Assembly: GCA_016210785.1 (NCBI GenBank)
Contig: JACQTN010000496.1
Span: forward strand, 1 to 19,356
Source: Armatimonadota bacterium
Lineage (GTDB): Bacteria; Sysuimicrobiota; Sysuimicrobiia; Sysuimicrobiales; JACQTN01
DNA length: 19,356 nucleotides
Reading direction: 5' to 3'
Shown one piece after another: positions 2,591 through 8,334 of the stretch. Every line of letters begins with the position of its first letter. Within the stretch, counting starts at the first letter, position 1. Made by a program: the position numbers and the translations under genes. Under the pieces are notes generated by a model. It was not told where the DNA came from and did no database searches. It was given only the letters and a program-made list of their open reading frames with translations.

Positions 2591-3076
2591 CTATCCGCCG
2601 TGGGCCGGTGCCCCGTGCGCACGCGCCGCGCACCGCGGTGCCAGCAGCGCGGCCACCTCCTCCAGCAACCACTGATCATCCGCGGTGAAAGCGTTCAGGG
2701 TGGAGCTGTCGATGTCGATCTCGCCCAGGACGCGCCCCGCGTGAATGATCGGCACCACGACCTCCGACCTGGTGGAGAGGAAGCACTGCAGGTAGCGAGG
2801 GTCTTGGGACACGTCGGGGACCAGTTCGGTCCGGCCCGACGCGGCGGCGGCGCCGCACACGCCCTTGCCGATGGGGATGCGCACGTGCTCGGTGGCCTCC
2901 GGCCCGCGCCAGGGCCCCAGCACCAGATCCGGGCCCTCGACCCAGTAAATGCCTGCCCAGTCGTAGTGGGGAAACCGCTGGTGCAGGTAGTCGACCACCG
3001 CGGCCGCCGCCGCGGCACCGTCGCGGGCCCGCCCGGCCATGGCGCGAATTTCGTCCAGGGACTCCCGGTAGTCCAT
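2591..3076 (-). CDS. GAF-domain protein, free methionine-(R)-sulfoxide reductase-like
   Basis: A 161-aa single GAF domain covering nearly the whole protein. The order YDWAGIYWV, LVLGPWRGP, VRIPIGKGVCG, RSEVVVPI and GEIDIDSS follows the fRMsr family (E. coli MsrC/YebR, yeast YKG9), which reduces free methionine-R-sulfoxide using thioredoxin. C74 (in GKGVCG) and C98 (in YLQCFLSTRSE) align with the family's C94 and catalytic C118. The position of the third cysteine (E. coli C84) is His64 here. The start is the ATG at 3076, seven bases after GGGAGG; a GTG at 3082 lies too close to that site. It precedes the methyltransferase by 2 bases. Alternatives are a GAF sensor without catalysis, but the two retained cysteines favour a reductase. 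Confidence 0.75.
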   Translation of the reverse strand: MDYRESLDEIRAMAGRARDGAAAAAAVVDYLHQRFPHYDWAGIYWVEGPDLVLGPWRGPEATEHVRIPIGKGVCGAAAASGRTELVPDVSQDPRYLQCFLSTRSEVVVPIIHAGRVLGEIDIDSSTLNAFTADDQWLLEEVAALLAPRCAARAHGAPAHGG

Positions 3077-3167
3077 CCCCACCCCTCCCGCGTCGCCGCG
3101 GCACCCTGACCCTGTGAGGCATCCCGACTTGTATTTCAGGTTGCGGGACCGGAACTCCTAGATCACC

Positions 3168-3198: not shown

Positions 3199-3276
3199 TG
3201 AACCCCCTGAAACATCCAACGGCGTCGCTTGAGGAGCGCTGACAGACGCTCCGGATGTTTCAAGGGGTTCAGGGGA
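3197..3276. repeat. Palindromic intergenic element, copy 1
   Basis: A 19-base arm at 3199-3217 (TGAACCCCCTGAAACATCC) pairs with 3253-3271 at 18 of 19 positions. Inside, GGAGCG (3233-3238) and CGCTCC (3247-3252) form a second stem. The left end GGTGAACCCCCTGAAA matches, at 15 of 16 bases, the end of the palindrome at 6288-6358. The common end and intergenic location suggest a dispersed REP-like or MITE-like family. No transposase or target-site duplication is visible. Confidence 0.6.
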
Positions 3277-3308: not shown

Positions 3309-3659
3309 TCAGGCGGACTCGCCTTCGGTGGGGTATCCGCGCTGCACCCACGCGAACAGGCCACCGCGCAGCGCCATGACGCGCTCGTACCCCAGGTCTC
3401 GCAGAGCGGCCGCCGCACGGGCAGCCGAGGCTTCAGCCGTTCACGTTCAGTAGAAGACCATGGTCTTCTCGCGCGGCAACTCGTCCAGGCGCTCCAGCAA
3501 CTGGCGCCCGGGGATGTGCCGCGCGCCGGCGATGTGCCGTTCCCGATAGGACTCCGGCTTCCGCACGTCCACGATCAGGATGTGGTCGCCGCGCTGCATC
3601 GCGGCGTAGAGGTCGTCAGGGTCAATCCGTGGGATCGTCTGCAGTGCCGCTTCGGCCAT
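3309..3659 (-). CDS. Rhodanese-domain sulfurtransferase, likely selenoprotein with Sec-x-Sec active site
   Basis: A 116-aa single rhodanese domain if two in-frame UGA codons are read through. The first 70 codons give the N-terminal half (IVDVRKPESYRERHIAGARH, then ending KTMVFY). The frame then reads UGA-ACG-UGA (3449-3441) and continues uninterrupted through TAEASAARAAAALRDLGYER and ALRGGLFAWVQRGYP to a UGA at 3309-3311. Related rhodaneses read FYCTCPNEATSAR here, so both UGAs fall exactly on the two cysteines of the active-site loop; the second is at the persulfide-carrying position. A hairpin with SECIS geometry follows. The ATG at 3659 has GAGGG eight bases upstream. Rhodaneses move sulfane sulfur (or selenium) via a Cys/Sec intermediate. 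The alternative is a pseudogene with two nonsense changes at just these sites, which is less likely. Ordinary callers would stop at residue 70 and miss the C-terminal half. Confidence 0.8.
3407..3427 (-). promoter_or_regulatory. Candidate bacterial SECIS hairpin
   Basis: On the minus strand, CGGCUGCC (3427-3420) pairs with GGCGGCCG (3414-3407): 8 base pairs with one G-U, closing a 5-base loop CGUGC. The loop starts 22 bases after the second UGA and 28 after the first, with G as its second base. Known bacterial SECIS elements sit inside the coding region just after the UGA, with an apical loop roughly 16-37 bases away and a G among the first two loop bases; all are met. G+C-rich DNA forms hairpins readily, so this supports but does not prove Sec insertion. 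Confidence 0.55.
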
Positions 3660-6507: not shown

Positions 6508-8334
6508 ATGATCACCGGCATCGCGACGCACACACTCTTGCTCATTGGCGCCTACCTGTGGGGCTCACTCCCATTGGGGTACTGGCTGTTGCGGGAGCGC
6601 CGCGGGATCGACGTGCGGCGGTACGCGCCCCACAACGTGGGCGCGGGCACGCTGGTGGCGATGGCCGGTCCCTCGCTGGTGGCGGCGGTGGCCGCGGATT
6701 TGGCCAAGGGGCTGCTCCCCGTGCTGGTGGCGCACGCCCTGTGGGCGTCGCCGTGGGCAGGTCCGGTCGCCGCCGCGGGCGCGGTGCTCGGACACGCGTA
6801 CTCCGTGTACTTCTTCGCGACCGAACGCCACTTCCCGCGCGCCATGAGCGTCACGCCCGCGGCAGGGACGCTGCTCGCCCTGTGGTGGATCGGCGCCCTG
6901 TCGACCGTCGCGGCGGCCGCCGCGGCGGCCGCCGCGACGCTGGCGGGGGCGGCGGCGCTGGTGGTGCCGCGCCTGTTCGGCCGCGGTTGGGGCTACCTGT
7001 CGCTGGCGACCGTGCTGGGAGGCCTGGCGCTCCTCGCGACGCTGGTTGCCGTGGGCGCGAACGACCCGGCGCTGGCGTTTGGGGTGCTCCTGGCCTCGCT
7101 GATGCTGTGGCGCCACAAGGAGCACCTGGCCCGCATCCTGGACAGCGTGGAGCCGCGCCTGGGCGAGCGACTGCCCATCACCGGTCTGGACGACGAGGTC
7201 GCCTGCGCCTTCATGATCCATCCCCTCACCATCAACGGCTGGTGGGAGTCGCGCCGCTTCGCGTGGATGCGACCGCTCGTTGAGCGCGGCATCATCCCCG
7301 AGCGGTTCCTGCTGTGGCTGGGGCGCATGGCCCGGCCCATGAAGGTGGACGAGATCCGTCCGGTGGTCACCCGTGACGGCCACCGCGCCCGCGTCTATCT
7401 CATCGGCACGCCGATGCTGCCCACGCAGATCAAATCGCACCAGAAGCTGGCCACCCGGCGGGCGATCCAGGCGGCGCGCCTGGCGCGCGACCTGGGGGCT
7501 ACGGTGCTGGGGCTGGGTGCATACTGGTCCGTGGTGGGGCGCAAGGGCGAGGACGTGCAGGCGCGCAGCGAGATCGCCATCACCAACGGCGGCGGCTACA
7601 CCGCGGGCACCATCCGCGTAGCGGTGCCGCAGATCATCCGGCGGCTGGAGCAGCGCGGCGTGGACCCGCGCCGGGCCACCGCCGCCGTGGTGGGCGCCAA
7701 CGGCGTGGTGGGTTTTGGCATCTGCCGCATGATCGCCGACAAGGTCGGCACCATCGTCATGGTGGGGACCAACCCGGAGCGCCTGGAGCGCTCGCGCGAG
7801 CTGCTGGCGCGGCGCTATCCCGGGGTCACCCTGGAGATCACCACCGACGCGGCCGACGCGCGGCGCGCCGACCTCATCTTCACCGCCACGAGCCAGGGCG
7901 AGCCGGTGATCTTCCCCGCGCACGTGAGGCCGGGGTGCCTGATCTACGACCTGGGACGGCCGCCCGACGTGCATCCGTCGGTGGCGGAGGTGCCCGGCGT
8001 GGAGGTGGTCCCGGGCGGCATGATCCGCCTGCCGGGCGGCGCCCAGTGGCGTGTGGACCTGACGCTGGGGCACGGCCTGGTCCCCGCGTGCCTGGCGGAA
8101 GTGCTCATCATCGCCATCGACGGCGCGCACCAGCGGTGCAGCCTGGGCGACGGCACGCGCAGCGAGGACATCGAGTACTTCGTGCGCCGGGGAGAGGAGA
8201 TGGGATTCGAGGTGGTGACGGGCCTGGGGCCCGACGGCGCGCCGGCCGACCTCACGCCGCGCGCGCCCACGGCCGCCGCGGCGGCGGGCGGACCGCCCCT
8301 GGCCGGACGCGGGAACCCCGACCGGGCCACATGA
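6508..8334 (+). CDS. Fusion of a PlsY-like membrane domain with an acyl-ACP-reductase-like domain
   Basis: 608 aa in two parts. Residues 1 to about 215 are hydrophobic with several membrane segments and PlsY features: AYLWGSLPLGYWLL at the N-terminus, a GID-R...HNVGAGT stretch where PlsY has GSGNIGATN, and the closing RHKEHLARILDSVEPRLGER. The PlsY GGKG motif is absent. From about residue 230 the protein resembles cyanobacterial acyl-ACP reductase (AAR): AFMIHPLT, GLGAYWSVV, ITNGGGYTAGT, an NAD(P) motif GANGVVGFG (396-404) and PACLAEVLIIAIDG, whose Cys528 aligns with the AAR catalytic cysteine. AAR reduces acyl-ACP to aldehyde; PlsY uses acyl-phosphate for glycerolipid synthesis. A role in acyl-chain or lipid metabolism at the membrane is inferred. 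The last 30 residues are Ala/Pro-rich. Its TGA overlaps the hemE ATG (ATGA). The start has only a weak ribosome-binding site. Confidence 0.65.
   Translation: MITGIATHTLLLIGAYLWGSLPLGYWLLRERRGIDVRRYAPHNVGAGTLVAMAGPSLVAAVAADLAKGLLPVLVAHALWASPWAGPVAAAGAVLGHAYSVYFFATERHFPRAMSVTPAAGTLLALWWIGALSTVAAAAAAAAATLAGAAALVVPRLFGRGWGYLSLATVLGGLALLATLVAVGANDPALAFGVLLASLMLWRHKEHLARILDSVEPRLGERLPITGLDDEVACAFMIHPLTINGWWESRRFAWMRPLVERGIIPERFLLWLGRMARPMKVDEIRPVVTRDGHRARVYLIGTPMLPTQIKSHQKLATRRAIQAARLARDLGATVLGLGAYWSVVGRKGEDVQARSEIAITNGGGYTAGTIRVAVPQIIRRLEQRGVDPRRATAAVVGANGVVGFGICRMIADKVGTIVMVGTNPERLERSRELLARRYPGVTLEITTDAADARRADLIFTATSQGEPVIFPAHVRPGCLIYDLGRPPDVHPSVAEVPGVEVVPGGMIRLPGGAQWRVDLTLGHGLVPACLAEVLIIAIDGAHQRCSLGDGTRSEDIEYFVRRGEEMGFEVVTGLGPDGAPADLTPRAPTAAAAAGGPPLAGRGNPDRAT

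Follow-up and report, generated by a model that had tools for sequence, protein, structure and literature searches.

We describe a gene on the minus strand of the window (the whole stretch of 19,356 nucleotides that was analysed) which we consider highly likely to encode a real selenoprotein, namely a single-domain rhodanese with selenocysteine (Sec) at residues 71 and 73, probably served by one SECIS element; it would act in a redox role, in the window's order with a GAF-domain partner. Within this reading, the identity of the protein is strongly supported, and we infer the chemistry and the partner. The first-pass annotation had located the gene correctly without giving its strand, and had noted that the frame runs through two in-frame UGAs in the active-site loop to a full rhodanese and a normal stop. 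Indeed, with both TGAs read as sense codons, the frame from the ATG at 3659 to the TGA at 3311-3309 gives a product of 116 residues with the active-site loop Y-U71-T-U73 (Table 1). Under the standard code it terminates after residue 70, and ordinary gene calling thus misses the protein; a large protein database returned it in truncated form, plus four ordinary rhodaneses. The product matches the Pfam Rhodanese family (PF00581) at 73 bits against a gathering cut-off of 22.2 (3e-20, residues 14-106), and its AlphaFold model (mean pLDDT 91.9) has the rhodanese fold with the catalytic residue in the loop following the central strand. There is an in-frame UGA at the place where homologues have Cys, and a glutamate of the same loop, E76, is invariant.

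Table 1. Positions of the features discussed, numbered from the first letter of the window
Feature	Position	Strand	Basis
Predicted double-Sec rhodanese gene (116 aa and TGA stop)	3309..3659	-	Translation with TGA as U, Pfam, AlphaFold model
First in-frame UGA (residue 71)	3447..3449	-	Aligns with the rhodanese loop Cys (BH2092 alignment)
Second in-frame UGA (residue 73)	3441..3443	-	Same site as the Sec of CxU relatives
Candidate bacterial SECIS (6-bp stem, 5-nt loop)	3409..3425	-	RNAalifold, pair counts, synonymous-codon test
GAF-domain gene, free methionine-(R)-sulfoxide reductase-like	2591..3082	-	Pfam GAF, matches to solved structures

Rhodaneses with the same two UGAs were found well beyond the window. 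A search of 100 genomes with the window protein revealed double-UGA rhodaneses in three (G006, G027 and G074) besides the window's own, and a profile search of the window's order gave double-UGA matches in 3 of 43 genomes (G000, which is the window's own bin, G027 and G006). A degenerate DNA motif pattern had 31 matches in genome_contigs (84,980 species); reading their translations, we recognised eight UTU rhodaneses, the other 23 matches lying outside a rhodanese frame. These eight come from Nitrospinota (L065, the G074 contig), Methylomirabilota (L066, L067, L070, L072 and L081), Planctomycetota (L092) and Armatimonadetes RBG_19FT_COMBO_69_19 (L087, the G027 contig), the last of which we take to belong to the CSP1-3/Sysuimicrobiota lineage. 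A profile search of 95 genomes from the phylum of L072 found, among the matches listed, UTU in at least seven (G101-G105, G117 and G120) and UGU in at least three (G104, G105 and G115), and in 199 sampled genomes from the phylum of L092 there was no double-UGA match at 1e-20 beyond L092's own gene. Overall, the UTU form is present in at least 12 genomes (three of the window's order, seven Methylomirabilota, one Nitrospinota and one Planctomycetota MAG) and the UGU form in at least three, two of which have UTU as well, giving at least 13 genomes with UxU; given the pattern and the cut-offs, these counts are lower bounds.

The recurrence bears directly on whether the reading frame is intact. A pseudogene or an assembly artefact would mean a frame broken by nonsense codons and a protein ending at residue 70, and the state of the window's bin, which is fragmented into 616 contigs, 72.39% complete and 4.23% contaminated and in which selA, selB and selC were not found, would fit such an origin. 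Against it, at least 11 further genomes have UGA at the corresponding pair of codons, which agrees with the earlier judgement that chance nonsense mutations at just these codons are improbable. Furthermore, over the 38 codons past the second UGA, dN/dS was 0.15-0.47 in nine of ten pairs, which overlap and cover short stretches, and the tenth pair was identical over the same codons. To judge from these comparisons, the coding stretch 3' of both UGAs is under constraint. With the retention of a SECIS-like hairpin at synonymous sites (see below) also speaking against a broken gene, we regard a pseudogene or artefact as very improbable. Even less credible is a change of the genetic code that would make UGA an ordinary amino acid in the window's organism, in favour of which we saw nothing: both UGAs fall at Cys/Sec places, relatives possess Sec machinery, and, as had been observed before, UGA is an ordinary stop elsewhere in the window, with TGA ending 8 of the 17 window genes that we picked and the rhodanese gene itself.

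The search for Sec machinery recommended in the first-pass annotation succeeded in part. A Sec-type selD was detected over the cut-off in the window's bin (G000:C269:9458-9925, L096), cut by the contig end; its motif CAGUASK contains a single in-frame TGA and fits the UxxK Sec motif of SelD given in the available part of PMC13188914. That this selD and the window belong to one organism rests on the binning. In the same bin (72% complete), selA, selB and tRNA-Sec were not found over the cut-off. A tRNA-Sec candidate of 46.9 bits was rejected, being a tRNA-Ser (GCT) by ARAGORN. In G027, a genome of the same order with a UTU rhodanese, a region of about 3.4 kb contains selA (546 bits), selB (321 bits) and tRNA-Sec together; a single gap in the window's bin could therefore account for the absence of all three. 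At 1e-40, selD was not found in G027 (80% complete) or G042; in the order's family f7, 11 of 12 selD loci contain one TGA. SelB was over the cut-off in 58 of 100 genomes and in seven of the eight named UTU genomes, the exception being the genome of L067. Taken together, the recurrence, the constraint, the SECIS-like hairpin, SelB in relatives and the selD of the bin support the reading of both UGAs as Sec, on comparative grounds.

For the insertion of Sec we obtained a single candidate element. RNAalifold, run on 14 double-Sec sequences, predicted one hairpin, with columns 25-30 pairing with 36-41 and a loop starting 21 nt past the second UGA and 27 nt past the first. According to the available part of PMC13188914, a bacterial SECIS has a loop of 3-9 nt, a stem of 4-16 bp, a G in loop places 1-2, a spacing of 16-37 nt and an energy of at most -7.5. 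The window hairpin, at -10.0 kcal/mol, agrees with these printed rules for both UGAs; energies across the set range from -9.0 to -12.2 kcal/mol, and a G occupies one of the first two loop places in 14 of 14 sequences. With one further outer pair counted, 91.8% of cells are paired, which was matched by 33 of 500 shuffles. The covariation score was matched by 7 of 500, as was the number of cells changed on both sides, the number of pairs changed on both sides by 192 of 500 and the number of further pair types by 259 of 500; two of these five measures of covariation are thus rarely matched by shuffles and three are not striking.

A clearer signal for the hairpin came from a position-specific test at synonymous sites. 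Third codon positions pair with third codon positions in three of seven pairs (outer pair included), and all six pairs form in 13 of the 14 double-Sec sequences (the exception being L112), compared to 11-19% of 4000 codon-usage-weighted synonymous recodings; the product over eight representatives, 3e-7, assumes independence and concerns a hairpin picked after inspection of the data. In L112 and in L067 one pair is broken (C-A). By loop type, all six pairs form in 11 of 13 UTU rows (with the gene of G006 counted twice), 3 of 3 UGU, 22 of 23 CTU, 6 of 9 CAU, 2 of 2 CGU, 1 of 3 CSU and 0 of 1 CDU rows, and RNAalifold, given just the 23 CTU rows, predicted this hairpin again. Neither of the two Cys forms (CTC and CSS) has all six pairs and both keep five, a weak control because two rows are few and some Sec rows also keep five of six. 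The folding energy of the whole region was unremarkable against synonymous recodings (p 0.05-0.63 over 15 rows, 0.40 for the window), and Rfam gave nothing above the gathering score within the window.

Probably, therefore, this one hairpin directs both Sec insertions: situated just 3' of the UGAs and within working distance of both, it would act on each of them. The protein might instead be effectively a single-Sec one, with one UGA decoded as Sec and the other read as a different residue or mostly terminating, as the presence of one hairpin only, and of the same hairpin serving the second position in CxU relatives, could suggest. This we think improbable, since both UGAs lie inside the 16-37 nt spacing window and 12 UTU and three UGU genomes have UGA at the first position even though a single change would give a Cys codon. 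On the double-Sec reading, the double form would have arisen from a CxU ancestor by one Cys-to-UGA change within reach of an existing SECIS, which suggests a route by which one SECIS comes to decode two UGAs.

The relatives are consistent with such a history. Our loci contained 97 rhodanese rows, reduced to 96 after dropping L053, a partial duplicate. Aligning them at positions 71 and 73, as had been proposed, showed Cys or Sec at both sites in 56 rows (38 CxU, 15 UxU, 2 CxC and 1 UxC), the remainder being one U-then-other, 36 Cys-then-other and three rows without a type; this mix is not a census, because the rows were gathered by UTU queries among the loci listed. The earlier expectation of Cys-x-Cys in relatives was right only in part, most of the near relatives seen being Cys-x-Sec. 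Sec at the first site only was seen as UTC in L148 and as UGF in L143.

The tree comprises 64 rows, namely 57 in which both sites are Cys or Sec or the first alone is U, and 7 of the 36 Cys-then-other rows, and excludes the other 32; Sec was coded as Cys, and the tree has few columns and many open forks. Eleven UTU rows fall into one weakly supported group, which includes two long-branched rows (L148 and L160). The Planctomycetota UTU sequence stands apart from this main group, beside two CAU rows, and three UGU rows sit inside a starred clade of CAU, CGU and CDU rows. UxU needs four changes on the tree, of which the starred branches force at least two, consistent either with two gains or with one gain and one loss. 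As the UGU rows group with single-Sec CxU relatives in a clade distinct from the UTU rows, more than one origin of double Sec seems probable. In Methylomirabilota (L117-L139 and the genomes searched), Sec rhodaneses of the CTU, CAU and CSU types are numerous. A single genome can have as many as 12 rhodanese matches at E 1e-12, and among the matches listed the majority contain one in-frame TGA. The UGU double-Sec rhodaneses L140-L142 come from three Methylomirabilota genomes and are nested among single-Sec relatives.

Comparison with known families placed the window protein closest to a single-Sec form. The best NCBIfam match of the window protein and of eight relatives is NF041203, rhodanese_LYCAU ('rhodanese form 3, CxU' in the available part of PMC13188914), with which it shares the second Sec site and, in most CxU relatives, a SECIS hairpin at the same place; the family differs in having one Sec (CxU), whereas the window protein has two (UTU). 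We rejected membership on scores, as the window rhodanese, at 82.8 bits, falls short of the cut-off of 115 and the eight relatives tested, CxU and CxC forms included, reach 62.3-95.5 bits, with L087 also below the cut-off. TsoB (NF045694), described in the accessible text of PMC13188914 as a rhodanese/DsbD fusion selenoprotein with two Sec (UxxxxU), is likewise a single protein with a rhodanese domain as well as two Sec, but it is a long fusion (572 model positions) with another Sec spacing, and the window rhodanese scores 40 bits against its cut-off of 805. The UxxU Prx-like and other two-Sec motifs mentioned in that text also contain a closely spaced Sec pair within a redox motif, but belong to other folds and, for UxxU, place two residues between the Sec instead of the one in UTU.

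In the same text, a 2026 review, the table of 119 selenoprotein families lists five rhodanese forms and no UxU rhodanese. We also found none in the accessible portions of PMC9312934, PMC2398784 and PMC5029168, and a term search of the searchable part of PMC12013277 gave no match to rhodanese, UxU or related words. 'UxU' and 'selenoprotein' both occur in the retrievable text of PMC11818150 and PMC3281104. Thus, the literature searched, as far as its text was available, contains no UxU rhodanese; absence from print is not established by this, and Haft and Tolstoy 2025 and Deng et al. 2026 may bear on it. The latter, according to the available part of PMC13188914, predict 63 selenoprotein genes in one Methylomirabilota MAG.

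The genomic context offers a candidate partner. The next gene downstream of the window rhodanese is the GAF gene, and in L087 the rhodanese frame continues stop-free into a GAF domain, an in-frame fusion, with 66% identity between the fused domain and the window's downstream gene. The GAF gene matches solved structures including 3mmh, whose entry names a free methionine-(R)-sulfoxide reductase, and 1vhm, which we take to be yebR, an enzyme of the same activity; the resemblance concerns the GAF protein, as partner candidate, and not the rhodanese. A GAF relative is beside or fused to 2 of 12 UTU genes (the window and L087), most loci having short flanks, and no common operon partner was seen in the other UTU gene neighbourhoods, read by eye. 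Between the two window genes lies a 19-nt inverted repeat (3199-3217 and 3253-3271, 95% complementary, 35-nt spacer), so the rhodanese and the GAF gene need not share one transcript.

With regard to function, the first-pass annotation had considered that a double Sec site could favour selenium transfer, diselenide or selenosulfide chemistry, or very fast persulfide handling. In our reading, Sec71, at the rhodanese catalytic position, would accept either an oxidising equivalent or a sulfane sulfur, which Sec73 would then resolve by forming a diselenide, and the pair would be reset by a thiol reductant; in the window's order, the likeliest partner would be the adjacent or fused free-methionine-sulfoxide-reductase-like enzyme. 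A possible but rather unlikely alternative is that the protein carries selenium or sulfur, for example in selenium delivery to SelD, and is not a redox partner. Sec at the catalytic position of a rhodanese fold, SelD in the same bin and the persulfide-handling rhodaneses 5ve3 and 3nta among the structural matches of the model would agree with a carrier. However, the presence of another chalcogen two residues further along would fit resolution better than transfer, the invariant E76 is unlike the Arg-bearing active-site loops of thiosulfate rhodaneses, and the fusion in L087 directs attention to the GAF enzyme.

Returning to the redox reading, a pair of Sec codons spaced by six nucleotides would be expected to lower the yield of translation, and that double Sec is kept in several phyla despite this cost argues for chemistry beyond that of Cys-Cys or Cys-Sec. 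We therefore suggest, tentatively and as the bolder and less probable part of our proposal, a new type of enzyme in which the rhodanese fold has become a diselenide redox protein, with two Sec from one SECIS forming a fast resolving pair, which in one lineage would be dedicated to supplying a free-methionine-sulfoxide reductase with electrons and which would have evolved more than once from single-Sec rhodaneses. On a practical matter, CxC, CxU and UxU on one fold form a natural series for testing the benefit of the second selenium.

Two further observations concern gene neighbourhoods. In L070, L072 and L081, one similar gene, presumably acyl-CoA-reductase-like, lies 0.3-1.2 kb from the UTU rhodanese, tail to tail. 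Elsewhere in the window, at 6508-8334, a glycerol-3-phosphate acyltransferase-like domain is fused to a shikimate-dehydrogenase-like domain.
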